A stretch of 36,098 nucleotides of DNA from Pirellulaceae bacterium (GCA_012744395.1 JAAYCB010000063.1:1-36098); one strand, 5' to 3'. Shown: positions 1,798 to 30,948, counted from the first letter of the stretch. Translations and numbers: made by a program. The notes: generated by a model not told the origin, from the sequence alone.

Positions 1798-4700
1798 TCA
1801 GTTCCACGGACCAAGCGTCCTGAGGACGAAGTCGACCGTCTTGGCGATCGACTTGCTGTCCGTTCCTCCCGCTTGGGACCGTGCCTCGACGAAGGAGAAA
1901 TCCCGCAGGTCGCACGTGAGCTGGTCGTTTGCGAGGCTTGCCGAATTGAATTCCGCGCGCAGAACGTCGTCGAGGGCGGAATCATGGAGCACGGCCGTGT
2001 CGTATCCGCCGCCCCCGTAGATTCTGATCGAGGTGATCGCACCGGCCGAGAAGACGTGGCTCCATGCGCCCAGGCTCACGTGGTAGCCGTCGGCGCTGGG
2101 CAGAAACTCGACCGCCTCGTCGCGGCTCGTGCCGGTGATCATCACTTGCCGGCCGCGCCGGCCGACCTGGATCACTTCGCCGAGCCGAATCCAATCGGCG
2201 GCCTCGCTGTCGCCGGCGCGGTCTTCCGCCCGGGCCATCTGCTCGCGGAGGCTGTAAGGCCAGCCGTAGGTTGTCAGGCTGGTGTGGATCGTCGAACCGA
2301 GGAAGCTGCCGATCGAGACCGAGGTGGGCCGCAGCCAGCCCGTATAGAGGCCGCCGATCCGGCCTTCCTCGTCCGCGTCGAGCGTGATCGTCGCCGTCAG
2401 CTGATCTCCGGCATAGCACGCGGCCGGCTGCCGGGCGACGACCTGGTAGTCGCCCGCCCGGAGACCGTCGATGCGGAATCGACCCTGGTCGTCGGTGATC
2501 GTGTTGATCTCGACCACGCCGCGATGCTCCGTGTCGTCGATCGCCGTGAGGGTCACGAAGACGCCCGGCAGCGGCAACGCGGCGGGCTGGAATCGGCTGT
2601 CCGTGTTCCGTGCATAGACATAGCCGGTGACGGCGGAAGTCATGCCGACATCGACCCGGACAATCGCCTCGTGCTCCGAGACGGCGCCGTCTGCATCGCG
2701 AATCGTGTAGGTAAAGGTGACCTTGCCGGAATAGCCGTCGGGCGCGACGTAGACGAACGACCCGTCGGCGTTCCCCTCGAGCAATTCTCCGACGGTCGGT
2801 TCTCCCCAGGTGTCGACAACGATCGGGTCGTTGCCCGGGTCGGAGTCGTTGGCCAACACCCCCCGCGCCGCGTCGACTTCCAGCCGGCCGAAGCCGTCGA
2901 AGACGTAGTAATCGGCGTTGGCCACCGGCGGAGCGTTGAGCACGACCAGCTCGAAGGAAACGCTCGCCGCTTCGCCGTCGCTATCGGTGGCCGTGACCGT
3001 GACCAGGCGCGAATCGTCGGGCCCGTCGGATGTCGCGAGCGACCAGCTCCAGGCGCCGTCGCCGTGGTCGACGATCGTGCCCGCGGAAACGGTCAGCGTC
3101 ACCGAATCGTCGCCCGGATCGTGGTACGTGCCGCTGTTGGCCGCCGTCTGGCCCTCCACGACTTCGACTTCCGGCAGGGCGGCGCTCACCTCGGGCGCCA
3201 CGTTGGCGACGACGAGTTCGAACGTCTCCGAGGTCGCCGCGCCGTCGCTGTCGGTGGCGGTGACCGTGATCACTTGGGAATCGTCGGGCCCGTCGGATGT
3301 CGCGAGCGACCAGCTCCAGGTGCCGTCGCCGTGGTCGACGATCGTGCCGGCGGAAACGGTCAGCGTGACCGAATCGTCGCCCGGATCGTGGTATGTGCCG
3401 CTGTTGGCCGCCAGTTCCCCTTCGTCCACATTCACCGCTGCCTGGTCGACCGTGAGCACGGGGGCGGCGTTCTCGACCACCAGTTCGAAGGTGATCGTGG
3501 CCGCGGCGCCGTCGCTGTCGGTGGCGGTGATCGAGACCTGCTGCGAATCGATGGCGTCGTTGGCGGTTGTGAACGACCAGCTCCAGGTGCCGTCGCCGTT
3601 GTCGACGATCGTGCCGGCGGAGGCCGCGAGCGTGACCGAATCGTCGCCCGGATCGTGCAGCGTGCCGGTGTTCGTGGCCGTCTCGCCTTCGACGACCGTT
3701 ACCGTTTGATGGTCGACGGATAGCGCGGGGGCGACGTTTTCGACGAGCAGTTCGAAGGTGATCGTGGCCGCGGCGCCGTGGCTGTCGGTGGCGGTGATCG
3801 AAACGGTCTGCGAGTCGTCCGGGCCGTCGGTGGTTTCCAACGACCAGCTCCAGGCGCCGTCGCCGAGGTCGACGATCGTGCCCGCCGAGGCGCTAAGGGT
3901 CACCGCGTCGCCGCCCGGATCGGAGTAGGTGCCGGTGTTCGTCGCCGTGGTCCCTTCGGCGACGGTCACCGACTCGTCGTGGACGCCGATCGCCGGGGGG
4001 AGATTGACGATCTCGATGGTCGCCTGGGCCAGTTCGCTGACCGCTCCGGCATTGTCGGTGCAGCGGAGGTAGACCATCCAGGAGCCGGGCCCGGCCAGGC
4101 CGTGGGCCGAGAAGACGGGGTTTTGTAGGTTCTCGTCGCCGCGCTCCGCCGCCTCGCCGGTCTCGCCGAACAGTCCATCGCCGTCGAGGTCCCACTCGTA
4201 GACGAGGGTCGGCTGGTCGGCCGGCGCGTCGGCGCCCGAGCCAAACAGCTCGACCGTGCCGAATTCATCGACCAGGTAGGGGCCGTTCGCGTCGGCCACC
4301 GGCGCGGCATTGACGACGGTCAGCTCGAACTGCTCGGTCGTCGACATCCCGTGCTCGTCGGTGACCGTGATCGACACGATATAGGAGCCGTCGTCGGCGT
4401 AGACGTGGCTGGCGTCGATCGACCCGACCGCCGGCGGCCAGGTCTCCTCCGCGTCGGCTTCGCCCGAATCGTTGGCGGTGCCGTCGCCCCAGTCGATCTC
4501 GTAGAGGAACGGCCCGCTGCTGTCGGGATCGAGAAACGCGGCGATCTTGCCGAAGTCGATCAGGCCTTCTGGGCGGGTCAGGTTGCCGACGACCAGCACG
4601 CTCGGCGGCTGGTTGTCTTCCTCGAGCGCCGCGGCGGCGATATCCGCCGGGTTGGCCAGCGGCCCGATGAACGGTTGGCCCGGCGCGGCGGACGTGTCCG

Positions 4701-7700
4701 AACGGAGGCCGTCGCTGCTGGCGGGCTCGGCCGGCGGTTCGACGTCCTGGACCGTGACGAGCAACGTCTGCGCGTGGGTTCCGCCGTCGTCGTCCTCGAG
4801 CGTGACGGTCACTTCGTAGGGGATCACGTTGCCGAGCGGATCGCGCCGCGCGCTGGCATAGGTGTGGCTGGCCGTGATCGAGCCGGTCAGACCGGCGACG
4901 TCGCCCGGCGGGCCGAATGGAGATGCGACCACGGTCGCCTGGTCTTGCGTCCCGTCGCCCCAATCGACCAGGGCCGTGTGGGTGTCGAGCGTGCCCGAGT
5001 CGAGGAAATCCACCGGGCCGAGGGTGAACGGTTCGCCCGCGTTGACGCTCGCGTCGGCGATCGGGTCGAGCACGGGCGCAACGTTCACCACGGTGACTTC
5101 CAGTGTCGCCGTCCCCACCCCGCCGTCGTCGTCGGTAACCGTCACGGTGACCGTGTAGGGGATGACGTCGCCGGAATCGTCGGTGTTCTCGTCGGCATAG
5201 ACGTGGCTCGCGGCGACGGTTCGGGCGACTGGATCGACCAGGCCGGCCTCGGGTTCCGTGCCGTCGCCCCAGTCGATCATCGCGGTGTGCAGATCAAGCG
5301 AGCCGGCATCGGTGAAACTCGCCAGAACCCTGTCGAGCAACGCCCCTTCCGCGATCTCCTCGGGTCCGAGGGGCGTGACCTGCGGCGGGGCGTTGCGGAC
5401 CTCGGCCGTCTTGTCGACGCTGATGCTGCCGCCATCGCCGTCGGCCACGGTCACGCGGACGTTGTAGACGAAGACTTCGGCGGGCGGATCCGCGCCGGTG
5501 GAGTTCGGGCCGTCGTCAAGATATCGGTGCGGATCGGAAAGGGGCTCGACCGGGATCGTGAACTCCCTGGCCCCGACCGGCAGGGTGACCACCGTCTCGG
5601 GCGTCCCGTCGCCCCAACTGACGGTCACGGTGTGCTCGTCGAGGATGCCGCCGTCTTCGAACGTGCCGTGGACATAGGCGACGTCGCCCTCGGTCACGGG
5701 CGCGATGTCGTCGACAACCAGCGCTCGCGGCGCCGCGTTGTTCACGATCACGGTCATGTAGCGTTCGAGCGAGCGGCCGCCGCCATCGTCCTCCACGGCG
5801 ATGGCGACCACGTAGCGGCCGTCGTCCAAGTAGGTATGCGAACCGTCGAACGTACCCCAGGTGAGTCTTCCGGGGCCGCCGGGGACGTCAATCCGGGCGG
5901 TGCCGCTGTCGAGTGCCGAGCCGTCGGCCCAGTCGATTTCGTAGGTGAACGCCGCAGCGTCGAGTTGATGGTATCCGGGGTCGGTGAACATCCCGAGGTT
6001 GGCGATGTCCAGTTCGCTCCCCTCGGCGACGACGCGGATGCCGCGGACCCAAAGGCTCGGGGGGGCGTTTTGGACGGTCAGGGAAAACGTGCCGAGGCCC
6101 TCTCCGCCGCCGTCGTCCCGCACGCGGATCGAGACGGTGTAGACCTCCAAGGCGACCCCGTAGTCGTGCGCGAGCTTGACCGTTTTGCCGTCAATCGCCG
6201 CCGGCTGCCAACCCGAGCCGTCGCCGTAGTCGACCTCGGCCGTCCACTGATCGTCGCCGGGATCGGTAAAGACGACATCCAGCGTGAATGGAGTCCCTTC
6301 GTCGACGATCGCATCTTCGATGGGGCTGACAATCGGGGCCGCGTTGAGGACCGTGATGGGGATCGTCCTGGTGTCGCTGGCGCCGCCGGAGTCGGTGATT
6401 GCGACCGTGACCGTGTAGGGATCGCCCGGCAAGCCGGCCGAGTTCTCATCGAGATACTGGTGGGAGCGGGCGAAGCCGCGCTCGCCCTCGGTCAAGTCGA
6501 ACGTGTCGCTCCCGCCATCGCCCCAGTCGATCGTGATCGTGTGGACGTCGACGGGGCTCGGGTCGTCGAATCCGCAATAGAGGGTCGTCGAACCGCCCTC
6601 GTCGATGGTGGCCGGGTCGGCGTCCAGATCGGTGATCGTGGGGACGGGCTGGCCGACATGGATCGAGTCGGGGGCGTAGGCGTAGCGGACATGGTCCGCT
6701 GCGTCGCGGATCGCGCCGAGCACGAAGTAGTCGCCGATCGCGATACCGGCAAGGTCGCATGTGCCAGATTGCGCCTGCGGCGCCGCGGCAGTCTTCGCCA
6801 GGGTCTGGCCCGCCTCGCTGCTGACCAGGATCGCATTGTCGTTGTAGGGGTTGCGGTCCGGATCGAGGTAGAAATGGGCGGTGGCCGGGCTGTCGTAGTC
6901 CTGGTGGCGGAAATCGACGTCGAACGTGTCGCCCGAAATGAAGTTCCGCTGGGCGGAAGCGACCCGCAGATCGAGGAGATTCGGCCAAGTGGCATTGGTC
7001 CAGTCGATGGCCGCGCGGCTCCCTTCGCCGCCCAGAGCGGTCGCCAGACCCGCGGAGGGACGCGGTCCCCCAACGACCCGGCAATAATAATACCCCGTTT
7101 CGCCGCGTGGGCCGGGCATCTGTTGGGCCGTGTCGTACCAGGCGGCCAGCTCGGCCGCGGTCAACTCAACATCGCCGTCGTGGATGCCGTCGACCGTGTC
7201 GATTGTGCCGTGGTACCAGAGATGGACGTCGGAGTGCGCGCCCGGATAGCCCAGGTTGTCCTCCCCATCGAGGAGCTCCTCGTTGAGGAGGAACTCGTGG
7301 GCCCCGGGGACGGATTCGCCGTCGAAGTCGGTCACATTCGCGTCGGATCGCCAGTAGCTGTCGGCGAAGACCACGTTCTCGGTGACGGCGAAGCTGTTGT
7401 CTCCCCAATCGTCGGCGCCGACGGGAAAATCGATCGGGTGGGTGTCGAGGTAGGTGACCTGGTCGACCCAGACTCCCGCCTGGCCGAAATCTTCCGCCAG
7501 GGCGCCAACCAGGGAAGCGCCGCGGCTGTGCCCGACCAAGTGGATCGGCGAGGCGAGCAGATTGGCGCCGAGTGAGGCCAGACCGGTCAAGAGATGCGTG
7601 GAGACCGCTTCGGCGACGGACTGGGTGGTCGCCTCCCAGGGCGTGGCGACGGCGGACCAGTCGAGGCTGACGACCGCTTCACCACCGAGCGACTTCGCCA

Positions 7701-8076
7701 GGTCGTAGGTGGCCGCGATGTCTTCCGCGTCGGGCGCGAAGGTGCCGTGGAAGTCCCAGCCCGTGACTTGCACGCCGCCATCCACCTCTTGGACCGTGAT
7801 CTTGAATTGGGCGACGCTCTCCGCTTCGCCCCCGTAGGCCTCGCCAATCCGGCCGGCGACCTCCTCCGCCATTCGACCAACCCAGATCGGCAACTGGGGC
7901 TGATCTCCGGGCGGTTGGGCTCCATGCGTGATGAAGGTCACGCCGCTGAGCAGCCGCCGATCTTCCAGCGGTTCGCAGAGCAGGCGGCGGCGCTTCGGTC
8001 GAGAAGCGCGGAGCGGGGACGGCGAGTCGGGATGGAGGATCGAGCTGCGGATGCGTTCAAAGAGAAATCGGCGCAT
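1798..8076 (-). CDS. Giant secreted LEPR-XLL protein: hydrolase, PKD domains and tandem repeats
   Basis: This is a 2092-residue protein. I chose the ATG at 8076 because the planctomycete N-terminal motif EPLEDRRLLSG (residues 35-45) then falls where LEPR-XLL proteins carry it; the frame stays open 162 codons further upstream, but that stretch looks non-coding. Domains in order: an alpha/beta-hydrolase (about 48-330) with the nucleophile elbow GHSRG (Ser184) and candidate Asp and His in YLDTHPID and HSDVHLWYH; about eight PKD-like Ig domains carrying WGDG motifs (about 480-1350); four tandem 89-residue repeats (about 1360-1713); a cadherin/VCBS-type domain with NDSDPGND (about 1714-1812); an SdrD_B/CarboxypepD_reg-like domain (about 1812-1925); and a unique C-terminus. 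No dockerin is seen. It is probably a surface or extracellular esterase/lipase on a long stalk. The substrate is unknown, and the hydrolase assignment rests on the elbow and fold order. Confidence 0.85.
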   Translation of the reverse strand: MRRFLFERIRSSILHPDSPSPLRASRPKRRRLLCEPLEDRRLLSGVTFITHGAQPPGDQPQLPIWVGRMAEEVAGRIGEAYGGEAESVAQFKITVQEVDGGVQVTGWDFHGTFAPDAEDIAATYDLAKSLGGEAVVSLDWSAVATPWEATTQSVAEAVSTHLLTGLASLGANLLASPIHLVGHSRGASLVGALAEDFGQAGVWVDQVTYLDTHPIDFPVGADDWGDNSFAVTENVVFADSYWRSDANVTDFDGESVPGAHEFLLNEELLDGEDNLGYPGAHSDVHLWYHGTIDTVDGIHDGDVELTAAELAAWYDTAQQMPGPRGETGYYYCRVVGGPRPSAGLATALGGEGSRAAIDWTNATWPNLLDLRVASAQRNFISGDTFDVDFRHQDYDSPATAHFYLDPDRNPYNDNAILVSSEAGQTLAKTAAAPQAQSGTCDLAGIAIGDYFVLGAIRDAADHVRYAYAPDSIHVGQPVPTITDLDADPATIDEGGSTTLYCGFDDPSPVDVHTITIDWGDGGSDTFDLTEGERGFARSHQYLDENSAGLPGDPYTVTVAITDSGGASDTRTIPITVLNAAPIVSPIEDAIVDEGTPFTLDVVFTDPGDDQWTAEVDYGDGSGWQPAAIDGKTVKLAHDYGVALEVYTVSIRVRDDGGGEGLGTFSLTVQNAPPSLWVRGIRVVAEGSELDIANLGMFTDPGYHQLDAAAFTYEIDWADGSALDSGTARIDVPGGPGRLTWGTFDGSHTYLDDGRYVVAIAVEDDGGGRSLERYMTVIVNNAAPRALVVDDIAPVTEGDVAYVHGTFEDGGILDEHTVTVSWGDGTPETVVTLPVGAREFTIPVEPLSDPHRYLDDGPNSTGADPPAEVFVYNVRVTVADGDGGSISVDKTAEVRNAPPQVTPLGPEEIAEGALLDRVLASFTDAGSLDLHTAMIDWGDGTEPEAGLVDPVARTVAASHVYADENTDDSGDVIPYTVTVTVTDDDGGVGTATLEVTVVNVAPVLDPIADASVNAGEPFTLGPVDFLDSGTLDTHTALVDWGDGTQDQATVVASPFGPPGDVAGLTGSITASHTYASARRDPLGNVIPYEVTVTLEDDDGGTHAQTLLVTVQDVEPPAEPASSDGLRSDTSAAPGQPFIGPLANPADIAAAALEEDNQPPSVLVVGNLTRPEGLIDFGKIAAFLDPDSSGPFLYEIDWGDGTANDSGEADAEETWPPAVGSIDASHVYADDGSYIVSITVTDEHGMSTTEQFELTVVNAAPVADANGPYLVDEFGTVELFGSGADAPADQPTLVYEWDLDGDGLFGETGEAAERGDENLQNPVFSAHGLAGPGSWMVYLRCTDNAGAVSELAQATIEIVNLPPAIGVHDESVTVAEGTTATNTGTYSDPGGDAVTLSASAGTIVDLGDGAWSWSLETTDGPDDSQTVSITATDSHGAAATITFELLVENVAPALSVDHQTVTVVEGETATNTGTLHDPGDDSVTLAASAGTIVDNGDGTWSWSFTTANDAIDSQQVSITATDSDGAAATITFELVVENAAPVLTVDQAAVNVDEGELAANSGTYHDPGDDSVTLTVSAGTIVDHGDGTWSWSLATSDGPDDSQVITVTATDSDGAATSETFELVVANVAPEVSAALPEVEVVEGQTAANSGTYHDPGDDSVTLTVSAGTIVDHGDGAWSWSLATSDGPDDSRLVTVTATDSDGEAASVSFELVVLNAPPVANADYYVFDGFGRLEVDAARGVLANDSDPGNDPIVVDTWGEPTVGELLEGNADGSFVYVAPDGYSGKVTFTYTIRDADGAVSEHEAIVRVDVGMTSAVTGYVYARNTDSRFQPAALPLPGVFVTLTAIDDTEHRGVVEINTITDDQGRFRIDGLRAGDYQVVARQPAACYAGDQLTATITLDADEEGRIGGLYTGWLRPTSVSIGSFLGSTIHTSLTTYGWPYSLREQMARAEDRAGDSEAADWIRLGEVIQVGRRGRQVMITGTSRDEAVEFLPSADGYHVSLGAWSHVFSAGAITSIRIYGGGGYDTAVLHDSALDDVLRAEFNSASLANDQLTCDLRDFSFVEARSQAGGTDSKSIAKTVDFVLRTLGPWN
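2938..4005 (-). repeat. Four tandem 267-bp (89-residue) coding repeats
   Basis: Equivalent positions recur at 3011, 3278, 3545 and 3812, exactly 267 bp apart, so each unit is 89 codons. Each protein unit reads roughly VDxxxVxVxEGExAxNxGTYxDPGDDSVTL, then ASAGTIVDxGDGTWSWS, then VTATDSDGAA. The two units nearest the 3' end of the gene are almost identical over about 135 bp (3011 onward against 3278 onward), which suggests a recent duplication or ongoing gene conversion. The units are VCBS/Ig-like stalk modules in appearance. Confidence 0.85.
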
Positions 8077-8601: not shown

Positions 8602-11541
8602 CTACCGCAGAAAACCGATGAAGAACGAGAACACCTGCTCCCGGTCGCCCTTTTCCGAAACGATCGGGAAGGCGAAGTCGAGCGCGATCGGCGCCGGCCC
8701 CATCGCGGGGATCGTGATCCGCAGGCCGAAGCCGGGGGCGACGCGATAGCGGTCCTGCCAGTTGTCGATCGTCGGTTGCACCGCGCCGGTGTCGCAGAAG
8801 ACGACGCCCCGCACCATGTCGTTGGCCGTGATCGGGAACATGTATTCGGCCGAGGCCAGCAGGCTGTACTCGCCGCCGACGACGACGCCGCCGACGCGCG
8901 GCGAGGCTTCGCGGAACCGGAAGCCGCGGATCGTCGAGAACCCGCCGGCGAAGTAGTGCTCGTAGATCGGCGTCTTCTCGCCGGTATAGGAGGTCGTGCC
9001 CTTGACGCTGAGCACATGCCTTCCGGAACCGTCGGGCCGCTCGTGGAGCATGAAGTACTTGCGGAAATCGATCTCCGCGCGGGGATACTGGTAGGTGCCG
9101 AGCACCTGCTCGAACGACATCGAAAGCAGGTGCCCTTCGGTCGGCAGAAACGTGCTGTCGCGGGTGTCGTGCGTCAATTGGCCCATGAAGCCGTAGAGGT
9201 CCGATTCGCCTACCGCGTCGAGCAGATCGGGTGGCGCGCCGAGGATCGGGTCGGAAATCGTCACGTGGGCGTAGCGTACCGCTCCGGAGACCGACAGGTC
9301 GTGGGTCAAGGCGTAGCCGAGAGCCACCCTGCCGCCGATCCGCTGCTCGTCCCACTCGTTGTAGAAACGCGTGTAGTAGAACCCGTTCAGGTTCAGGCTG
9401 ACCTGCGAATCGAGCAGGTAGGGCTCGGTGAACGTGACCATGTAGCGTTGGACTTCCGTGCCCGGCATGGCCTCGACGCGGAATCGCTGGCCGCGGCCGC
9501 GAAACGCGGTTCCGTTGCGGATGTCGGCCCAGCTTCGCGGGGGGCGCTGCCAGTCGAAGTTCTGCTCGTCGATGACGACCGAGCCGATCAGGCCCGCTTC
9601 CGAGTTGATCCCGGCGCTGAACATGAACCGGCCGGTCTCCGTCTCCTGGCCCGTCGGTACCAGCGGCAGATCGATCAGCGGCTCCTGGTCGGGCGGCGTG
9701 CCGACCATCGGGCCCTGGTAGCGATCGCCAAACAGGCCGAAGTCGGGGAAGAACGAACCCGGCTGACCGGCCGAGCCGACGCTGGCCGGCGGCGGCAACT
9801 GGCCCGCTGGCGGTTGGGCGTAGGTGCCCGCCGGTGGTTGGGCGTAGGTGCCCGCTGGGGGCTGGACCTGGCCGGCGGGCGGTTGGGCGTAAGTGCCCGC
9901 CGGGGGTTGGGCGTAAGTGCCCGCTGGGGGTTGGACCTGGCCGGCGGGCGGTTGGGCGTAGGCGCCCACCGGCGGCTGGGCGGGCGGGCTGCTCGATTGG
10001 ACGCCGTAGGGCGGCAGCGACGGCGTCGATTTGCCCCAGTCGGCTGAATACTGGTATCTGACGATATTCTCGCTCGGCTGGGCCTGGGGGGGGCGGGAGT
10101 CCGCATCGGCCGGGTCTTGCTGGCCGCGAAACGCGCCGGTCTGCGCCTGCCGCCGGGCAAACTCGATTTTCGCCCGTTCGATGTCCTCCGGAGTTGGAGG
10201 GCTGAAGGCGATGTCGGGCACGACTCCCATGGCCGGATCGACCTTGAAGAGCTGGCTGGAACGGAGCCTTCGCTGGCTGTTGCGGAGTTCGCGGATATCG
10301 ACGATATCGCCCGGCTGGAGCGACATCCGGTTGAGCATCGTCGTGATCTGGGTGTGCGGATAGTCGCCGAGGATCTTGGGCTCGATTTTGCCCACCCGGT
10401 ATCGTTCCCCTTCCGTGATCTTGTAGACCAGGTCGAGTTGTCCCGGCTCTTCGAGGAATCGGATTTCCGGTTTGACGTCGGCGAAGACGTAGCCGACGGC
10501 CCCGTAGCGGTCCTTGATCGCGTTCTCCCCCTCGGTCATCCGGTCTTGATAAAAGGGCTCTCCCGGTTTCAGTTTCAGCAGCGCCTCGAGCTCCCCGGTG
10601 GCGATCTTTTCATTGCCGACGACGGACAGATTGCGGACGGCGTAGCGAGGCCCTTCGTCAATCACGAACTTCAGCGAGATCCAGGTGCGCCTGTCGCTGA
10701 ACTGGTGCTCCTCGAGCGTGCAGCCGATCCGCGCGCGGAAGAATCCCAGGCTATGATAGTAGGATTCGAGACGTTCCTCATCGAGGTCGATCTGTTTGCG
10801 GTCCAACTCCCCGCCGAAAACCCAAAGGATGCCTTGCTTGGACTTGATTTGCGTCCGCAGCCGTGCGTCGGTCGCGATCGAATTGCCCTCGAAACTGGTC
10901 CAGAGGATGCTCTGCTTGGAGCCTTCGTTGATGAGGAACACGACCCCTTCGTCCGTTGGCCGGCTGCCCTCGAAGAGGCTCACATGGGCCTTGGGGAATC
11001 CCTTTTTCTTGTAGAAGGCCTCGATCCGGCGGCGGGCTTCCTCGACGGCGAACGGGTCCAGGGCGTCGCCGGTCTTCAGCTTGGCTTCCTTCGCCAGGGT
11101 CTTCTTGCTGATCCGGTTGCCGACATACTTGACATAGCCGATGGTGGGCCGCTCGGAGACCTCGAAGACGACCACCTTGCCCTGCCCGTTGGGCGCGTCC
11201 TGGTATTGGGGGCGGACATGGAGCACGAGGCCGGAATCGGTCAAGCGGACGACGTCCTGCCCGACCGTCTCGGCGCTGTAGGGCCGCCCGGGACGCGTCT
11301 TGATCAGGCGCAGCAGGCGTTCCTCGGGCGTGTGCTTGTTGCCAACGATTCGCACCTCGACGACGATTTCGGCGGCGGGAATCTCGGCGGGAATCGCCGC
11401 CGGTTGAACAAGCGCCGGCAGGTTTGGCGGTTGGGACGCATGGCAAACCGCCCCAGCGCCAGCCGCCGAGAGGGCGCCGATTGCCAGGATCTGGAGAGCG
11501 GCGCGCGTAGTTTGGCTGGCGAGCGTGCGGACTGCGACCAT
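8602..11541 (-). CDS. bamA: BamA/Omp85-family outer-membrane assembly protein with proline-rich linker
   Basis: This 979-residue protein is predicted to insert beta-barrel proteins into the outer membrane. The ATG at 11541 has a clear ribosome-binding site (GGAAGGA) and opens a signal peptide; an upstream extension of 116 codons is non-coding in character. Residues about 55-445 hold roughly five POTRA domains, with motifs such as VVEVRIVGNKHTPEERL and RNLSVVGNEKIATGELE. Residues about 450-625 are a Gln/Pro-rich linker with tandem QPPAGTYA units, unlike classical BamA, where POTRA5 abuts the barrel. The barrel occupies about 630-979 and carries the Omp85 signature IRGFRF near residue 870. The C-terminus is FFIGFLR, so it lacks the usual terminal aromatic residue. 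It follows dnaB after 351 bp. The Omp85 family is certain; the exact ortholog (BamA or another Omp85) is inference. Confidence 0.88.
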   Translation of the reverse strand: MVAVRTLASQTTRAALQILAIGALSAAGAGAVCHASQPPNLPALVQPAAIPAEIPAAEIVVEVRIVGNKHTPEERLLRLIKTRPGRPYSAETVGQDVVRLTDSGLVLHVRPQYQDAPNGQGKVVVFEVSERPTIGYVKYVGNRISKKTLAKEAKLKTGDALDPFAVEEARRRIEAFYKKKGFPKAHVSLFEGSRPTDEGVVFLINEGSKQSILWTSFEGNSIATDARLRTQIKSKQGILWVFGGELDRKQIDLDEERLESYYHSLGFFRARIGCTLEEHQFSDRRTWISLKFVIDEGPRYAVRNLSVVGNEKIATGELEALLKLKPGEPFYQDRMTEGENAIKDRYGAVGYVFADVKPEIRFLEEPGQLDLVYKITEGERYRVGKIEPKILGDYPHTQITTMLNRMSLQPGDIVDIRELRNSQRRLRSSQLFKVDPAMGVVPDIAFSPPTPEDIERAKIEFARRQAQTGAFRGQQDPADADSRPPQAQPSENIVRYQYSADWGKSTPSLPPYGVQSSSPPAQPPVGAYAQPPAGQVQPPAGTYAQPPAGTYAQPPAGQVQPPAGTYAQPPAGTYAQPPAGQLPPPASVGSAGQPGSFFPDFGLFGDRYQGPMVGTPPDQEPLIDLPLVPTGQETETGRFMFSAGINSEAGLIGSVVIDEQNFDWQRPPRSWADIRNGTAFRGRGQRFRVEAMPGTEVQRYMVTFTEPYLLDSQVSLNLNGFYYTRFYNEWDEQRIGGRVALGYALTHDLSVSGAVRYAHVTISDPILGAPPDLLDAVGESDLYGFMGQLTHDTRDSTFLPTEGHLLSMSFEQVLGTYQYPRAEIDFRKYFMLHERPDGSGRHVLSVKGTTSYTGEKTPIYEHYFAGGFSTIRGFRFREASPRVGGVVVGGEYSLLASAEYMFPITANDMVRGVVFCDTGAVQPTIDNWQDRYRVAPGFGLRITIPAMGPAPIALDFAFPIVSEKGDREQVFSFFIGFLR
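9786..9985 (-). repeat. Tandem repeat encoding QPPAGTYA/QPPAGQVQ units
   Basis: Within the BamA-like gene, 7- and 8-codon units PPAGTYAQ and PPAGQVQ alternate. A higher-order 23-codon (69-bp) block, one QVQPPAG followed by two TYAQPPAG, occurs twice, flanked by diverged copies (GAYAQPPAG and QLPPPAS). The units are nearly identical in DNA, so copy number could vary by slippage. Confidence 0.8.
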
Positions 11542-11892
11542 CGGGGTCCTTCCCGTTTCGCGGTTGCTGATCGTCGAGAATAGCGCCCTAGCCTGGCACA
11601 TCGTTGCTTGCTTGTTGAGCTTACGGACGGCGCTGGCGGGCAGTTCAACCATCCCGGCAACGCCAGCGCCTGCCATCTCGGGGGTGCGGCGCTGGCCGGC
11701 TCTCCCGGTCGCGCGCGCCTCCCGCGCCGAGGGGCGATCCATGCGCCAAGAGACTCCACAATGGGCGTACAAATACAGAAAGCCCCTTGGGCTGGCAAGG
11801 CGAGTTCCGCCGGGGGCGAGAAGCTGCGGGTTTTGGAGAGGCTGTGCCGCCCGGGGCCGGAAATTCCCGCCCACCCGGCGACTCGGCACGGC
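11542..11892. other. 351-bp gap between dnaB and the BamA gene
   Basis: I see no gene here. On the minus strand there is a weak promoter-like pair, TTGCCA (11798-11793), a 17-bp spacer, and TATTTG (11775-11770), which would give a leader of about 220 nt for the BamA gene. The frame of the BamA gene is open through the whole gap, but the translation is Arg/Pro-rich and resembles no protein. Confidence 0.4.
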
Positions 11893-13326
11893 TCAAAACG
11901 GCTCGGCAGTCCCCTGGAAATCATTGAACTCGTCGTAACGGTCGACCGCGCGATTCTCGAACCGCGTGAACTCCTGCCGCCAGGTCAGCTTGACATCGTC
12001 GGTCGGGCCGTTCCGCTGCTTGGCGACGATCAGTTCCGCCTTGCCCACCAGGTCGCGTTCGCGGGCTTCCTCGCGCGACATGTAGTACTCCTCGCGGTGC
12101 ACGAACATCACCACGTCGGCGTCCTGCTCGATCGCCCCGGATTCCCGCAGGTGGCTCATCCGCGGCCGATTGTCCTTGGTGACCTCGGCCTGGCGGTTCA
12201 ATTGAGCGAGGCACAACACGGGCACCTTCAGCTCCCTGGCGAGCCCCTTCAGTCGCCGGGCGATCTTGGCCACCTGTTCTTGGCGCGGATCGGAGGGATT
12301 CTCCGGCTCGATCAGTTGCAGGTAGTCGATCACCACGAGGCCCAGCTGGTTGCGCCGCTTCAAGCGCCGCGCCGTGGCCGCGATCTCGGTGACCGTGCGG
12401 CTCGGCGAGTCGTCGATGAACAGGGGCGCCTTGCTCAGCTCGGCGGAGGCCTTGACGAGGTCCTCGCGATCTTCGCTGGAGAGGTATCCGGCGCGGAACT
12501 TGTGCCCATCGATCCGCCCGCGTGAGCAGAGCATCCGCTGGGCCAACTCGAGCCGGGCCATTTCCAGGCTGACCATCAGCGTGGTGACGTTCGATTCGAC
12601 CGCCACGTGATCGGCGATGTTGGTCGCCAACGCTGTTTTTCCCATGCTGGGTCGGGCGGCCAGGATGACCAGTTCGGAATCGTGCAGGCCGCCGGTCAGG
12701 CTGTCGAAATCGTTGAAACCGGTCGGAATTCCGGTCGCGCCGCCGTGCTTCAGGCGGTGGTCGATGTGGGCGAAAGCGTCGACGAGGACGTCGTGCATGT
12801 TGGCCACCTGTTCGGCGCTGCGCTCGTCGTGGACGGCGAAGATCTTCTCCTCCGCCCGGCCGACCAGCTCGCGCGGATTATGGGTTGGGTCGTAGGCGTC
12901 GCGGAGAATCTCGGTACTCGCATGGATCAGCGACCGCAACGTGGACTTGTCGCGGACGATCCGCGCGTAGTAGGTGGCATGGGCGGCAACGGGGACGGCT
13001 TGGAGGATCTCGGCCAGGAACGCCGTCCCGCCGACCGCCTCCAGATCGCCGGCCTGGCGGAGCCGCTCCACGAGCAGGGTGGTGTCGAGGCGGCCCCCCT
13101 CGCCGTGCATCGTGATCATGTGGTGGTAGAGCTTGCGATGGGCGTCGGCATAGAAGTCCTCCGCCCGCAGGATCAGCGCCACCTCGTCGCAGAGGACCGG
13201 ATCGAGCAGCAGGCTTCCGAGCACGCCCCGCTCGGCATCCAGGTTCTGGGGCGGCAGCCGGTCGAGAATCTCGGAACTCACGCGCGCCGCGCTGTGTCTG
13301 CCGTCCACGCGTCCTGCCGTCGCCAT
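11893..13326 (-). CDS. dnaB: Replicative DNA helicase DnaB
   Basis: This 477-residue protein has the normal length for the hexameric helicase that unwinds DNA at the replication fork and recruits primase. The ATG at 13326 has GGAG-type ribosome-binding sites. The N-terminal domain begins with LPPQNLDAERGVLGSLLLDP (about 24-43). The RecA-like C-terminal domain carries the Walker A motif ARPSMGKTAL (Lys230, Thr231), the Walker B motif LVVIDYLQL (Asp334), and the later motifs QLNRQAE, LRESGAIEQDADVV and VAKQRNGPT. No intein is present. It lies 44 bp after rplI in the rpsF-ssb-rplI-dnaB order seen in many bacteria and is probably co-transcribed. Confidence 0.97.
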   Translation of the reverse strand: MATAGRVDGRHSAARVSSEILDRLPPQNLDAERGVLGSLLLDPVLCDEVALILRAEDFYADAHRKLYHHMITMHGEGGRLDTTLLVERLRQAGDLEAVGGTAFLAEILQAVPVAAHATYYARIVRDKSTLRSLIHASTEILRDAYDPTHNPRELVGRAEEKIFAVHDERSAEQVANMHDVLVDAFAHIDHRLKHGGATGIPTGFNDFDSLTGGLHDSELVILAARPSMGKTALATNIADHVAVESNVTTLMVSLEMARLELAQRMLCSRGRIDGHKFRAGYLSSEDREDLVKASAELSKAPLFIDDSPSRTVTEIAATARRLKRRNQLGLVVIDYLQLIEPENPSDPRQEQVAKIARRLKGLARELKVPVLCLAQLNRQAEVTKDNRPRMSHLRESGAIEQDADVVMFVHREEYYMSREEARERDLVGKAELIVAKQRNGPTDDVKLTWRQEFTRFENRAVDRYDEFNDFQGTAEPF

Positions 13327-13370
13327 CGCTCCGTCTCCACGAGAATCCGTGCCCGCCACGAGGAACCGGC

Positions 13371-13916
13371 TCAGGCCTCGTCCTCGCCAACGGCCGGAAC
13401 CACCCAAACCTTGACTTCCGAGTCGACATCCTGGCCGACATGGAGTTTCACGGTGTACAAGCCGAGTTCTTTCAGGGGGCCTTCCAGCCGCACCTGGTCG
13501 AGGGCGATCGTGATCCCGGCCTTCTTCAGGGCGTTGACGATCTCCGGCGCGCCGACCGAACCGTAGAGGTGTCCCTCCTCGTTGGCGTTGGCCTCGATCG
13601 TCAGGCTCTGCTGCTTCAGTTCGGCGGCCAGCGTCCGCAGCCCGGCGAGCCGGGCTTTCTGGATCGAGAGCAGCTTGGCCTTGTGCTTCTCCACCATTCG
13701 CTTGTGGTGTTCCGTGGCAATCGTCGCCAACCCCTGCGGGATCAGGTAATTCAGGGCGTAGCCCGGTTTCACGCACACCACGTCGCCCTGCTCGCCGACG
13801 TCTTCAATCGATTGGATCAGCAGCAGTTCGATGCCGCCCGCGGGCCCTTTGGGAAGCCTCTTGAAGCGTCTCTCTCGGCCGGCCTTTGCTTGTTTTCTGG
13901 TCTTTGTCTGCGCCAT
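13371..13916 (-). CDS. rplI: 50S ribosomal protein bL9 with basic N-terminal extension
   Basis: This is a 181-residue L9. The usual start of the family (xxILLxDVExLGxxGDVVxVKxGYARNFLIPxGLA) is matched from about residue 29 by IELLLIQSIEDVGEQGD and GYALNYLIPQGLA. It is preceded by about 28 extra residues rich in Lys and Arg (for example RERRFKRLPKGPAGG). I chose the ATG at 13916, with GGAGAGG about 9 nt upstream; a further in-frame start at 13949 is possible. The connecting helix and C-terminal domain (GSVGAPEIVNALKKAGI) are present. L9 sits near the L1 stalk of the large subunit and supports translation fidelity. It lies between ssb and dnaB. Confidence 0.95.
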   Translation of the reverse strand: MAQTKTRKQAKAGRERRFKRLPKGPAGGIELLLIQSIEDVGEQGDVVCVKPGYALNYLIPQGLATIATEHHKRMVEKHKAKLLSIQKARLAGLRTLAAELKQQSLTIEANANEEGHLYGSVGAPEIVNALKKAGITIALDQVRLEGPLKELGLYTVKLHVGQDVDSEVKVWVVPAVGEDEA

Positions 13917-25689: not shown

Positions 25690-28092
25690 TTACTCGAACG
25701 TGATCTCGCGAATGATCAACCAGAAACGCTGGGCCTCGTTTGCACGCAGCCTGAGGGCGTTGATCTTCTCAGCCGGCAGGGTGGTTTCCACCCGGGCGGC
25801 GCCGAGCTCGGCGAGCTTCGTCCACGTTCCATTTTCCAACCGGACTTCGAGCACGCCGTTGTGGACATACTCCTGTTGATAGCGGCTCGTGCCCAGCAGG
25901 ATCGTGACCTTCTTCAGTCCCGCCGGCTCGTCCAGCAAGAGGGTGAAATGATCCCCGGCCTCCAGGCCGCGGTTCGACCAGTAGAACGTCTCCGGGTCGC
26001 CGTCGCAGGCGAACTCGGCGTAGTAGTCCTGGTAGTTTCCGAGCGACGACTCGATTCGGCCGGGCCGCGAAAGCCTCTCCGGTTTGGCCCAGAGTCGCAG
26101 CCCCAACTCAGCGGCATCGGGCAGCGGCTCGCCCTCTTCGAGCGCTTCGCGGGCCGCCGCCAGCCGCCCGGCGAGCGCGTCGCATCGGGCGATCGCCTGG
26201 TCGTAGCGGGCGAGCGACCAATCGAGCGCGTAGGGCTTGTTTTCCCGTTCCCAAAGCGCCTGCCACCGCGCGCGGAGCCTGCGAAACGCCTCGCCGGTTC
26301 GACTCGCGGCGGCGGCCGCGCGATCGAGCCGGGCGGCGGCCGGCGCGCCTCCCGTTCGCGCTTCCTCATAGGCCAACGCCGCGCTGACACGGTCGATCTG
26401 GCCTTGGTAGTGCTGCCGCAGCCGCTCGGCGCCGAAGCGGACTGGATCGACCAGATCGGCATCGGCCCTGGCCCCCGCGCGGCAGGCATCGAGATGCCCG
26501 ATCGCCTTTTCGATGACTCTCAGGCAGTCCTCGGCCTGCGTCTGGTCATCGCGGCGGACCAGCCCGCTCGGCGTTTCCCAAAAAGTCCGGTTCGGCAGCC
26601 CGCAGAATCGGCTGTCGGAAAGAAGCCGGATCGCCCGGCCGAACTCGTCGCCGGGCTCGCCGAAGAGCACCGCGCCGATCCGCCGGTCGAAATCTTCCCG
26701 CGCGGTCTGCGAGGCGTTCCAGGCGCACTCGGCGCCCCAGGCGAAGCCGTACCAGTTGGGCGCGTTGAGATTCTCGCCGTCGTCGTCCCACGACGTGTTG
26801 AGCATCCCGATCGCGCCGTGCCGGGCCCCATCGCGGACGAAGTTGCGGATGTTCGTCGAGGCTGCGCGAAAGTCGGGCAGCACCCGGCTCCAGTTGTTCA
26901 CGCCCGGGCAGACGAAGAATTCATAGCCCGAGGCGGCAAACGGGAGAATCTGGTCTTCAAAGCTGTCGCGGGCGGCGTAGCCCCAGGTGAGCATGACGAC
27001 GTCCTTGGGAATCTCGGCAAGCTTGTCGGGATGCTTCAGAATGATATCGCCCCACATCATCATCCGCTTGCCGTACTTGCCGTGCACCAGGTCGTAGACG
27101 CGGCGAATGTGCCGCACGTAGACCGCGCCGGGGCCGATCTTGTCGGCCAGGGCCTTCGACGGCCCGCGCGTCCCCAGGCCCCACGTCTCGTCGCAGCAGA
27201 CGTTGAACATCTCGAAGGGGAGGATCGGCAGCACCTCGGAATACAGGTCGTCGAGCAGCGCGTAGGTGCCCTCCTTGGCGGGCGAAAGGGTCCGGTCGTC
27301 TTCCTTCAAGGCGGCGTATTCCGGGTGCGCCAGCGCGTGCTGCATGTGGGCGAACGACTGCTGGTTGCCGAGAATCCCGATCCCCAGCGGCCGGCCATGC
27401 TCGACCAGCGCGGCCAGCTCCTCGGCACTCAGCGATCCGTCCTTCGGACCGAGCAGCGGGTGTTTCTTGAAGGCGAACTGGCTCTGCATGTAATAGGTGA
27501 ACAGGTTGAGCTTGAGCCGCGCGCCGCGGGCCAGGTCGCGCTGCAACTGGGAGAGCTTCGTGCTCGGGCCGCGGGTGATGTCGTCCTGGAAGGCCCGCCA
27601 GCGGATGCTCGGCCAATCGCGGACCACCAGGCAGGGAATCGCGCCGTCGCGGCGGTTGGCGCGGACGAGCTGCGCGAGCGTCGCCAGGCCGTGAACGAGG
27701 CCAGCGGGCTGCTTGGCCCCAACCACTGCCGCCTCGGGCGCGACCGACAGCGCGTAGTCTTCGCCGCCGGCTTCCGGGCGGAGGCTCGGCGGCGGGCCGC
27801 ACCGGCCGCCGGCCGGCATCAGCCGGGCGACCGGCTCTCTGCCGCCGCTGAGCCGTAACGCCGGCGGCGCGAGCCCGAGGCGCCGGAACTCTTCCAGCAG
27901 GAAGGCCTCCGCGGCGTGCCGGGCCGTCTCGGGAACCTCGACGACAAGCGGCCGTTCGAGGCGGAAGGCCCCGGCGCTGATCTCCACGTGCTTCGGAAAG
28001 GGGACCAGCCGCAGCAATGCCGCGTCATCGGCCAGAGCAGACGTGGCCGCCAAGATCGCCGCCGCGGCGGAGACCGAAAAAGCACCCTGCAT
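25690..28092 (-). CDS. Exported GH20-like beta-N-acetylhexosaminidase with C-terminal F5/8-type domain
   Basis: This 800-residue protein starts at ATG 28092 with GGAGGGG 7 nt upstream and a signal peptide ending near ALAD. It opens with a GH20b-type domain (LVPFPKHVEISAGAFRLERP, about 28-47). The TIM barrel begins RDWPSIRWRAFQDDITRGPS (about 150-170). The catalytic pair is Asp301-Glu302 in FNVCCDETWGLG, matching the GH20 D-E pair that acts by substrate-assisted catalysis. A helical segment follows (about 480-650). A discoidin-like (CBM32/F5-8) domain lies at the end (ACDGDPETFYWSNRGLEAGD). It probably removes N-acetylhexosamine from glycans; exact substrate is unknown. It is the first gene of the minus-strand operon, behind the promoter at 28175-28203. 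Confidence 0.88.
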   Translation of the reverse strand: MQGAFSVSAAAAILAATSALADDAALLRLVPFPKHVEISAGAFRLERPLVVEVPETARHAAEAFLLEEFRRLGLAPPALRLSGGREPVARLMPAGGRCGPPPSLRPEAGGEDYALSVAPEAAVVGAKQPAGLVHGLATLAQLVRANRRDGAIPCLVVRDWPSIRWRAFQDDITRGPSTKLSQLQRDLARGARLKLNLFTYYMQSQFAFKKHPLLGPKDGSLSAEELAALVEHGRPLGIGILGNQQSFAHMQHALAHPEYAALKEDDRTLSPAKEGTYALLDDLYSEVLPILPFEMFNVCCDETWGLGTRGPSKALADKIGPGAVYVRHIRRVYDLVHGKYGKRMMMWGDIILKHPDKLAEIPKDVVMLTWGYAARDSFEDQILPFAASGYEFFVCPGVNNWSRVLPDFRAASTNIRNFVRDGARHGAIGMLNTSWDDDGENLNAPNWYGFAWGAECAWNASQTAREDFDRRIGAVLFGEPGDEFGRAIRLLSDSRFCGLPNRTFWETPSGLVRRDDQTQAEDCLRVIEKAIGHLDACRAGARADADLVDPVRFGAERLRQHYQGQIDRVSAALAYEEARTGGAPAAARLDRAAAAASRTGEAFRRLRARWQALWERENKPYALDWSLARYDQAIARCDALAGRLAAAREALEEGEPLPDAAELGLRLWAKPERLSRPGRIESSLGNYQDYYAEFACDGDPETFYWSNRGLEAGDHFTLLLDEPAGLKKVTILLGTSRYQQEYVHNGVLEVRLENGTWTKLAELGAARVETTLPAEKINALRLRANEAQRFWLIIREITFE

Positions 28093-28174
28093 CGCAGTAC
28101 CCCTCCACGGATCGCCGGCCGGTGTTGACGGGAACATCGCCTGCCGGAATGCCAGAAGCCCTCGACCGCGCGGC

Positions 28175-28203
28175 ATTCTAGCACGCGGCTCGGACGCCGG
28201 CAA
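28175..28203 (-). promoter_or_regulatory. Strong predicted promoter of the GH20-GH36-URO-D operon
   Basis: On the minus strand the -35 is TTGCCG (28203-28198), the spacer is 17 bp, and the -10 is TAGAAT (28180-28175), preceded by TGC as in an extended -10. The start of transcription would be near 28168, about 75 nt ahead of the ATG at 28092. The element has the best -10 of any promoter seen in this window. Confidence 0.6.
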
Positions 28204-28250
28204 ACTCTCCCCGCAGACCGCGGCAAGGCCATGCCCTGGATCGCGGCTGC

Positions 28251-28279
28251 TTGCAGCCCGCACGGGCGTCCGCTAGGCT
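28251..28279 (+). promoter_or_regulatory. Possible promoter of the clan A hydrolase gene
   Basis: TTGCAG (28251-28256) is followed by a 17-bp spacer and TAGGCT (28274-28279). The -10 keeps the three most conserved bases (T, A and final T). The start codon of the next gene lies at 28330, 51 bp downstream. The region is divergent, with the GH20 operon promoter on the other strand about 48 bp away. Confidence 0.3.
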
Positions 28280-28329
28280 ACGGGGAAGGTTTGGTCGAGG
28301 GGGCCCGGGCGCGAACAGGGAGAACACCG

Positions 28330-30948
28330 ATGATTCCACGATTGCTGCTTTTCTCTGCCATCGTCTGGGCGGGAGGCGTGGGGCTGGCGGGCGAGGGGCC
28401 TGCCCAGACGCCGGGCGAATTCCCCTTCGTAATTTCGTATGACGCCCCGGACAACGTGACCAACGCCTCCAGCTGGCTGCCCAAGCCGGCTGGCGGGAGC
28501 GGTTTTGTCCGGGTAAAGGAGGGGCGGCTAACCACCGACGCGGGCCCGATCCGCTTCTGGGCGACGAATCTCTGCTTCGACGCCTGCTTCCCCAGCCACG
28601 AGGAGGCCCAGCGGGTCGCCGCGCGGCTCGCCCGGCTCGGCATCAACTGCGTGCGGATGCACCACATGGACTCGCGGTCGATCTGGGGCAAGAGCCCGAA
28701 CAAGACGATCATCGACCCCGAGCGGCTCGAACTGTTGGACTATCTGATCTACCAGCTTAAAGAGCACGGCATTTACACGAACATCAACCTGCACGTCTCG
28801 CGGTCGCTGGGCGATGCCGAGGGCTTTCCGCACGCCGACCGGCGGCCGAACTACGACAAGGGGATCGGCAACTTTGAACCGCGGATGATCGAGCTCCAGA
28901 AGAAGTACGCCCGCGATCTGCTCACGCACGTGAATCCCTACACGAAGACGGCCTATTGCGATGAGCCGGCCATCGCGATGGTCGAAATCAGCAATGAAGA
29001 CGCCCTGTTCGACATCTGGAACCGGGGCAACCTGGACGACCTGCCGGAGCCCTACGCGGCGACGTACCGCGGACTCTGGAACGCCTGGCTCGAAAAGAAG
29101 TATGCCACCACCGAGCGGCTCAAGGAGGTCTGGAACGCTGGCTCGGCGCCGCTTCAAGGCGAATTGCTCGCCGATCCCGACTTCCGCCAGCCGCTCGGCA
29201 GGGCCTGGTCGGTGCAGACCGACAGCGAGTCGGAAGTCGACGTGGCGGTCACCGAAGGCGGGCCCGAGGGCCGGCCCGTGCTGCGGCTGGAAATCAAGAA
29301 GATGGGGCGCGAGGCGTGGATTCCCCAGATCTGGCACGCCGGCCTGGCGGTCAAGAGGGACCGGCCCTACACGGTGGCCGGATACGTGCGAGCCAGCGAG
29401 CCGCGGCAGGTCGGCATCAACTGCATGATGGACCACGAACCCTGGCAGCGCGTGGGGCTTTCGGGCAGGCTCAGCGCGGCGGACGAGTGGAAGCGATTCC
29501 AGGTGACCTTCGTCGCCGAAGCGGACGAGCCCAGCGCGCGGGTCTCCTTCTCCGGGTTCCAGCCGGGAGTGTACGAGTTCTCGGGGGTTTCCTGCCGGCC
29601 GGGGGGGATCGTCGGCTTGCCCCCGGATGAACGGCTCGAGGATGCGAGCGTGGCCGTCGTCCCGCGGGGCAACATCAACGTGACCCCGGCCGCCAAGAGC
29701 GACTTTGTCGATTTCCTCTGGGACACCGAGCGCGACTACTGGTGGGGGATGCACCGCTTCCTCAAGGACGACTTGAAGGTCCGTTCGATCGTTTCGGGCA
29801 CCCAGTTGAGCTATAGTCCGGTGCATGTCCAGGCGGGGCTCGACTATATCGATGCCCACTCCTACTGGCACCACCCGGTGTTCCCCGGCCGGCCTTGGGA
29901 TTCGGCGAACTGGTACGTTCGCAACTTCGCGCTGGTCAACGCGGCGGATGGGGGCACGCTCGCCCGCCTGGCGGCGCGGCGCGTGGCCGGGATGGCCTAC
30001 ACGGTCAGTGAATACAACCACCCGGACCCCAACTTCTACGCGGCCGAGGGCTTTCCGATGATCGCCGCCTTCGGCCGGTTTCAGAAGTGGGACGGCATCT
30101 TCTCGTTCACCTATTCCCACAGCCGGGATTTCGAGCCCCGCAGGCTCAGCGGCTACTTCGACATCAAGGGCCAGACGGCGAAGATCGCCCACGGCATTGC
30201 CTGCGCCGCCCTCTTCCTCCGCGGCGACGCCGACGAAGCGAAGGCGGCGATCGCGGCCGATTTGCCGCCCGAGGCGGAACGCCAGATGCTCCACAAGACG
30301 CTCACCGCGTGGCGCCTGACGGCCGACAACCTCGGCCTTGGTGTGACCGAATCGATGCGGCACGCCGTCGCCCTGAACCTCGATCCGAAGGTAAAGAACG
30401 CGCTGCCATCGCCTTCCGAGGAGTCGAGGCAAATCACCTCGGACACCGGCCAACTCCGCTGGGACTGGAGCATCCCGGACGCCGGAACCTTCATCGCCGA
30501 CACGCCGCGGACCAAGGTTTTCACCGGGTTTGTCCGCGGCCGGACGTTCTCCTTGGGCGACATCGAATTGAAGATCGAGCGGGCAAGGCTCGACTGGGCC
30601 ACGGTCACGATCACGGCGATGGACGGGCCCGACCTCCGCTCGCCGGGCCGGATTCTGCTGGTGGCGACCGGAGAGGTGAAGAACACGGGGGCGCGAATCG
30701 AGGACCTCGGCGGAGGGCGGATCACGCTGGGCAACCGCTGGGGCAGTGCGCCGATTCTCTGCGAGGGGATCGGGGCGCGGGTCGCGCTGCCGGTCGACGC
30801 GGCAAGGGTCCGGCTCTACGCGCTCGACGAGGCGGGCAACCGCCGCACGGCGATCCCCGTGGCCGAACGCGGCGGCCGCGCCCTGCTGGCCATCGGACCG
30901 CAATACACGACCGTCTGGTACGAGATCGAGATCGTGCCGCAGCCCTAG
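28330..30948 (+). CDS. Exported clan A (GH5-like) glycoside hydrolase with inserted carbohydrate-binding-like domain
   Basis: This 872-residue protein starts at ATG 28330 with GGGAG 7 nt upstream and a signal peptide (LLLFSAIVWAGGVGLAG). The first half of the barrel shows PIRFWATNLCFDACFP, LGINCVRMHHMD and IYTNINLHVSR. The acid/base candidate is Glu223 in MVEISNEDALF, and the nucleophile candidate is Glu561 in YTVSEYNHPDP. Between them, at about residues 290-425, lies a beta-sandwich-like domain (HAGLAVKRDRPYTVAGYVRA, WKRFQVTFVAEAD) that resembles CBM4/9-type modules. C-terminal beta domains follow (about 700-872). The two-Glu pattern fits retaining GH-A enzymes, but the family number (GH5, GH39, GH42 or other) cannot be settled by eye. 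Probably cleaves a plant or algal polysaccharide. Confidence 0.8.
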   Translation: MIPRLLLFSAIVWAGGVGLAGEGPAQTPGEFPFVISYDAPDNVTNASSWLPKPAGGSGFVRVKEGRLTTDAGPIRFWATNLCFDACFPSHEEAQRVAARLARLGINCVRMHHMDSRSIWGKSPNKTIIDPERLELLDYLIYQLKEHGIYTNINLHVSRSLGDAEGFPHADRRPNYDKGIGNFEPRMIELQKKYARDLLTHVNPYTKTAYCDEPAIAMVEISNEDALFDIWNRGNLDDLPEPYAATYRGLWNAWLEKKYATTERLKEVWNAGSAPLQGELLADPDFRQPLGRAWSVQTDSESEVDVAVTEGGPEGRPVLRLEIKKMGREAWIPQIWHAGLAVKRDRPYTVAGYVRASEPRQVGINCMMDHEPWQRVGLSGRLSAADEWKRFQVTFVAEADEPSARVSFSGFQPGVYEFSGVSCRPGGIVGLPPDERLEDASVAVVPRGNINVTPAAKSDFVDFLWDTERDYWWGMHRFLKDDLKVRSIVSGTQLSYSPVHVQAGLDYIDAHSYWHHPVFPGRPWDSANWYVRNFALVNAADGGTLARLAARRVAGMAYTVSEYNHPDPNFYAAEGFPMIAAFGRFQKWDGIFSFTYSHSRDFEPRRLSGYFDIKGQTAKIAHGIACAALFLRGDADEAKAAIAADLPPEAERQMLHKTLTAWRLTADNLGLGVTESMRHAVALNLDPKVKNALPSPSEESRQITSDTGQLRWDWSIPDAGTFIADTPRTKVFTGFVRGRTFSLGDIELKIERARLDWATVTITAMDGPDLRSPGRILLVATGEVKNTGARIEDLGGGRITLGNRWGSAPILCEGIGARVALPVDAARVRLYALDEAGNRRTAIPVAERGGRALLAIGPQYTTVWYEIEIVPQP

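Follow-up and report, generated by a model that had tools for sequence, protein, structure and literature searches.

A likely lipase-like hydrolase with a LEPR-XLL N-terminus, a modular rod and a shared C-terminal module in a Pirellulaceae bacterium

Introduction

In pancreatic lipase the catalytic acid lies behind the strand adjacent to the nucleophile. Among bacteria nearer to the subject of this work, lipolytic clones of planctomycetes fall in families IV and V (PMC4103521). PMC8567305 credits Studholme et al. 2004 with the proposal that the planctomycete LEPR-XLL motif is an export signal, and the PEP-CTERM system was defined by comparing homologues that have a module with homologues that lack it (PMC1569441), the same kind of comparison as is used here.

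We describe a gene from a Pirellulaceae bacterium that we consider likely to encode an exported enzyme, a carboxylester hydrolase from an uncurated family of bacteria, with the fold of pancreatic and lipoprotein lipases and phospholipase A1, a LEPR-XLL motif for its export, and a rod and C-terminal module for its placement at or near the surface. The explanation draws on homology, conservation, a fold model, an exchange of N-terminal signals and a C-terminal module shared with other proteins. The family adds to the PVC bacteria a lipase-like enzyme for which Pfam and NCBIfam hold no model, and what makes it interesting is chiefly the natural exchange between LEPR-XLL and signal peptide, together with the paired C-terminal module.

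Results

The window, which is one whole contig of 36,098 nucleotides (GCA_012744395.1, JAAYCB010000063.1), carries on its minus strand an ATG-initiated open reading frame of 2092 amino acids (1798..8076). The sequence-only reading of this frame was borne out, as it is open throughout and the LEPR-XLL motif, the GHSRG hydrolase and the PKD/Ig modules are all present. Its signal is not one of chance because homologues of the hydrolase head occur in other genomes (E down to 1e-47) and at 41 loci of a named collection; an overlapping plus-strand ORF (4351-7575) was set aside since homology favours the minus strand. In a sister species of the genus, the 3' end of the gene and the gene downstream of it were found at 93% DNA identity, the remainder being truncated by the contig end. 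This downstream gene encodes a putative beta-barrel porin-7 (BBP7, PF07585; 27-1658, plus strand) and is convergent with the lipase gene. Directly upstream and on the same strand lies a BamA-type outer membrane assembly protein of 1095 aa with a long N-terminal extension (8602-11889, minus), and beyond it a DnaB with about 170 additional N-terminal residues (11893-13776, minus). BamA and DnaB were rejected as functional partners as both are housekeeping proteins and are not common to the homologous loci, and a search for conserved neighbours in all the loci returned neither a candidate partner nor a hint of substrate. Rfam and tRNA scans gave no matches. Elsewhere in the window, a GH20-type hexosaminidase gene (25690-28263, minus) adjoins a plus-strand ORF with weak CBM_4_9/cellulase matches (28231-30948), and a HEAT-repeat Pfam match (E 9e-76) was found on the plus strand at 31329-32873, where the minus-strand ORFs tested had no Pfam match.

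A Pfam search of the translated frame returned Planc_extracel at residues 29-45, five stretches of PKD_4, four of Big_9 and a prealbumin-like domain at about 1834-1903. The N-terminal LEPR-XLL motif (7942..7992, minus), noticed earlier as such, reads LEPLEDRRLL near residues 35-44 and ends one residue short of the first strand of the hydrolase. Against the Planc_extracel (PF07595) cut-off of 25.5 it scored 27.8 bits in the DNA/genome scan, which is above, and 21.2 for the whole 2092-aa protein, which is below. The motif is followed by a pancreatic-lipase-like alpha/beta-hydrolase domain (residues ~45-355; 7012..7944, minus), supported by the model and by fold and profile matches, and by an Ig-like beta-sandwich (residues ~360-475; 6652..6999, minus). 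Next comes a very acidic rod built from about 13 modules of the PKD, Ig and cadherin-like types (residues ~476-1815; 2632..6651, minus), containing 17% Asp+Glu vs 2.6% Lys+Arg, in which PKD_4 (PF18911, 109 bits) and Big_9 (PF17963, 102 bits) were both above the Pfam cut-offs; the NCBIfam matches to the stalk were under cut-off, reflected Ig repeats only and were discarded. The protein ends with the prealbumin-like domain (CarboxypepD_reg/SdrD_B/SpaA; residues ~1834-1903; 2368..2577, minus) and a C-terminal module (residues ~1983-2092; 1801..2130, minus) with the last residues TVDFVLRTLGPWN. The PKD/Ig stalk proposed from the sequence thus exists, but at about 1340 aa it is shorter than the ~1700 residues claimed: residues ~360-475, counted as its beginning, belong to the conserved enzyme unit, and residues ~1834-2092 are the prealbumin-like domain and the C-terminal module.

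The extent of the enzyme unit was apparent from the homologues, most of which align from residue 40 to about 475, with residues 45-475 as the conserved unit. The first Ig-like domain therefore belongs to the enzyme as a constant second part, fused to the hydrolase, and does not open the stalk. In an alignment of 42 family sequences the residues His51, Gly52, Gly182-His183-Ser184-Arg185-Gly186, Asp205, Asp211, His281 and His285 never varied, and Ser184, Asp211, His281, His51 and Gly52 were identical in 42/42 even where relatives shared only 23-30% identity. An AlphaFold model of residues 40-475 (pLDDT 89.6, pTM 0.92; model numbering +39 gives protein numbering) places the predicted nucleophile Ser184 (GHSRG; 7525..7527, minus) in a strand-turn-helix elbow formed by strand 139-144, Ser145 and helix 146-160 of the model. 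The predicted catalytic acid Asp211 of the LDxH motif (7444..7446, minus; Asp172 of the model) stands immediately past the next strand (165-171), the position that the acid has in pancreatic lipase, and the predicted catalytic histidine His281 of the HSDVH motif (7234..7236, minus; His242 of the model) lies in a loop preceding a helix. The invariant pair His51-Gly52 (7921..7926, minus), just past the first strand, aligns with the HGF of the oxyanion region of pancreatic lipase. Ser184, Asp211 and His281 are well supported by conservation and the model as a predicted catalytic triad, though not proven, the sequence blocks having failed to align the histidine with that of pancreatic lipase. In the proposed mechanism Ser184, partnered by Asp211 and His281, would attack an acyl ester, and the region past His51-Gly52 would form part of the oxyanion hole. 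That the head is instead a degenerate, non-catalytic domain for binding lipids or esters might be thought from Thr212, which replaces the Pro of most relatives (LDPHP), and from Ala53, which replaces the Phe of many; as the Ser, Asp, His and HG pair are kept in 42/42 members, the window protein included, we regard this as very improbable.

The assignment to the alpha/beta-hydrolases with GHSRG at Ser184, made earlier from the sequence, is now backed by the fold, the invariant Ser/Asp/His set and a distant homology to pancreatic lipase. In VIA, the best matches with a known function were lipoprotein and pancreatic lipases, at Z 12.5-14.8 over 194-211 residues. The top match overall was 3ds8 (Z 15.2, tied with lipoprotein lipase), a hydrolase from Listeria that is uncharacterised. 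As Ig-like matches dominated the Foldseek search of the two-domain model, the head was folded and searched separately, which gave hornet phospholipase A1 as the top match (E 1.3e-4), thioesterases and cutinases lower in the list, and modest TM-scores to lipases (0.35-0.45). The sequence search of the PDB with the whole protein gave no match, and with the head alone a chance-level match only. The family profile reached rat PLRP2 (1bu8) at E 4e-6 with HG, GHS and LDP aligned, and profile-profile comparison with pancreatic lipase, for which the human sequence identical to 1lpa_B was used, gave a probability of 95.8% and E 7e-9. PF00151 (Lipase) was matched by 7/42 family members (best E 6e-6); its Pfam cut-off of 27 bits was not reached by the window head (12 bits) or by the member L022 (13.8 bits). 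No Pfam or NCBIfam model reached cut-off on the head, the best weak ones being Thioesterase, Abhydrolase_6 and Lipase, all below wherever scored. The second domain matched Ig-like folds such as Spo0M and RbmA at a Z of about 10, and PLAT was not among the matches listed.

On these grounds the head probably shares its catalytic layout with animal pancreatic and lipoprotein lipases and phospholipases A1, and it is a probable fat-splitting enzyme, a distant relative of animal pancreatic lipase. The same fold and triad could serve a natural substrate other than neutral lipid: the head might cleave polyesters or acylated algal polysaccharides, or act as a phospholipase A1 or a thioesterase. The phospholipase A1 at the head of the Foldseek list, the weak Pfam Thioesterase match in 33/42 members and the resemblance of the Ig-like domain to carbohydrate-binding modules, among many other folds, would agree with this. 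Since lipases lead the matches whose function is known and nothing specific points to another substrate, we hold this to be a serious though minority possibility and take a lipid ester to be the likeliest substrate.

Apart from the catalytic residues, the homologues were informative on the N-terminus. In 15 of them, the window protein among these, exactly one residue separates the end of the LExRxLL motif from strand 1 (LLS/GVTLITHG) and no hydrophobic segment is present (best 12-residue hydropathy <=1.46), while 24 others carry at that position an ordinary hydrophobic signal peptide (hydropathy >=1.64), the last residues of which are usually small (A-x-A or A-x-G, for example). No protein was found to have both, the two hydropathy ranges not overlapping between the 15 and the 24. 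Across the loci L016-L056, LEPR-XLL and classic signal peptides interchange at the identical residue within this one enzyme family. On a maximum-likelihood tree the N-terminal states need three changes, at least two of which are forced by well supported branches, so the exchange occurred more than once. Such mutual replacement without co-occurrence points to LEPR-XLL as an export signal, the route and any cleavage lying outside what the exchange shows, and it speaks for the proposal that PMC8567305 credits to Studholme et al. 2004. The motif would act as an N-terminal export signal in the place taken by the signal peptide of relatives, and the head would adopt its lipase-like hydrolase fold at the free N-terminus.

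The family occurs in many members of the Planctomycetes and Verrucomicrobia. With the window's own genome counted, in which the head is single-copy, head matches were found in 7/100 related genomes and head profile matches in 12/392 genomes across the phylum. The homologous loci of the named collection belong mainly to Planctomycetota (Pirellulales, Phycisphaerae) and Verrucomicrobiota; Zixibacteriota and Lentisphaerota contribute a single locus each. One contig labelled Candidatus Nealsonbacteria (JABMRB010000594.1) carries a planctomycete-type gene; the label is probably wrong, as the matching genome groups in the window's own family. Two more distant relatives of the head (L013 and L014), with Ser, Asp and His conserved, lie within very large open frames of 1697 and 2337 aa and have no LEPR-XLL directly before the head, which is either internal there or has its N-terminus cut off. 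Past the conserved unit, the tails of the homologues vary among dockerin, PPC, CARDB, SdrD_B, fn3, Calx-beta, a T9SS-type tail or nearly nothing, and the PKD/Big_9 rod was absent from all the homologue tails examined. We read the rod as the window protein's own variant on an enzyme with exchangeable tails. The earlier remark that no named enzyme has this exact order holds in so far as the order is particular to this protein among those examined; it is a variant and not the essence, because the head occurs widely with other tails.

The last ~110 residues proved to be a single copy of a repeat that stands at the end of many large proteins in the window's genome, closing on VDF(L/V)L..GxW, for which no model was found in Pfam or NCBIfam. 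A profile of it matched in 29/60 related genomes, with up to 50 copies in one, and in 19/20 loci examined the module ends 0-5 residues from the stop codon. Copies of the module, which stands at the ends of many giant LEPR-XLL proteins, include L099 1227-1556, L100 5672-6001, L101 3105-3434 and L102 3858-4187 (minus). LEPR-XLL was present in 15/17 module-bearing ORFs with a complete 5' end, against 49/588 other long ORFs of the fetched loci matching a loose LEPR-XLL pattern, a control that includes antisense ORFs and known LEPR-XLL proteins. The module is a natural candidate for a signal that anchors or sorts the protein.

An enzyme held off the surface on a rod, as first proposed, is plausible and needs such a C-terminal anchor: the acidic ~13-module rod, perhaps stiffened by calcium, and the shared module would together hold the enzyme at or near the cell surface. 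The protein might otherwise be released to act in the biofilm matrix or on particles, with the PKD/Ig modules being adhesive or glycan-binding. No membrane helix is visible in the window protein (best 19-residue hydropathy 1.3), and the dockerin, PPC, Calx-beta and other tails of relatives suggest varied modes of attachment; the C-terminal module is nonetheless common to many giant LEPR-XLL proteins, and among the proteins with the equivalent N-terminal motif detected in Tuwongella, 8/20 were exclusively in the Tris/SDS-soluble fraction (PMC8567305). Release is in our judgement the less likely of the two, and placement at or near the surface is preferred.

Discussion

A secreted alpha/beta-hydrolase with surface modules is of a known kind; the family is uncurated and the domain combination of the window protein is a variant. 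As the homologue set bears LEPR-XLL or a signal peptide at one residue, the LEPR-XLL export proposal becomes testable by swapping these ends, and the recurring C-terminal module offers a concrete candidate for the sorting or anchoring of giant planctomycete proteins. We advance only tentatively the further idea that LEPR-XLL is a true export signal able to stand in, one for one, for a signal peptide of the Sec type, and that the VDF-L-x-G-x-W module is its partner in sorting or anchoring, the two making up an undescribed route to the planctomycete surface that uses both ends of the protein. The lipase family would be a natural test case for such a route, since its enzyme occurs with one signal or the other.

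Among known systems, the pancreatic lipase, lipoprotein lipase and phospholipase A1 family (PF00151) resembles the window family in its fold over ~200 residues, in the HG past strand 1, the GHSxG and the Asp right behind the following strand in LDP, and in having a catalytic domain followed by a beta-sandwich. The window family differs in falling under the Pfam cut-off, in having GHSRG in place of GHSLG, in a second domain that seems to be Ig-like where that of PF00151 lipases is PLAT, in lid-region residues that are unalignable, and in being bacterial with modular tails. The uncharacterised bacterial hydrolases 3ds8 (Listeria lin2722), 3fle and 3lp5 (putative cell surface hydrolase) share the alpha/beta-hydrolase fold (Z 12-15) but only ~10% identity, and are without a comparable second domain or tail. 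With the planctomycete extracellular LEPR-XLL proteins (PF07595) the window protein has in common the N-terminal RRL..E.LE.R.LL, the large size and the surface-type modules, whereas its enzyme family has relatives outside the group that bear an ordinary signal peptide at this position.
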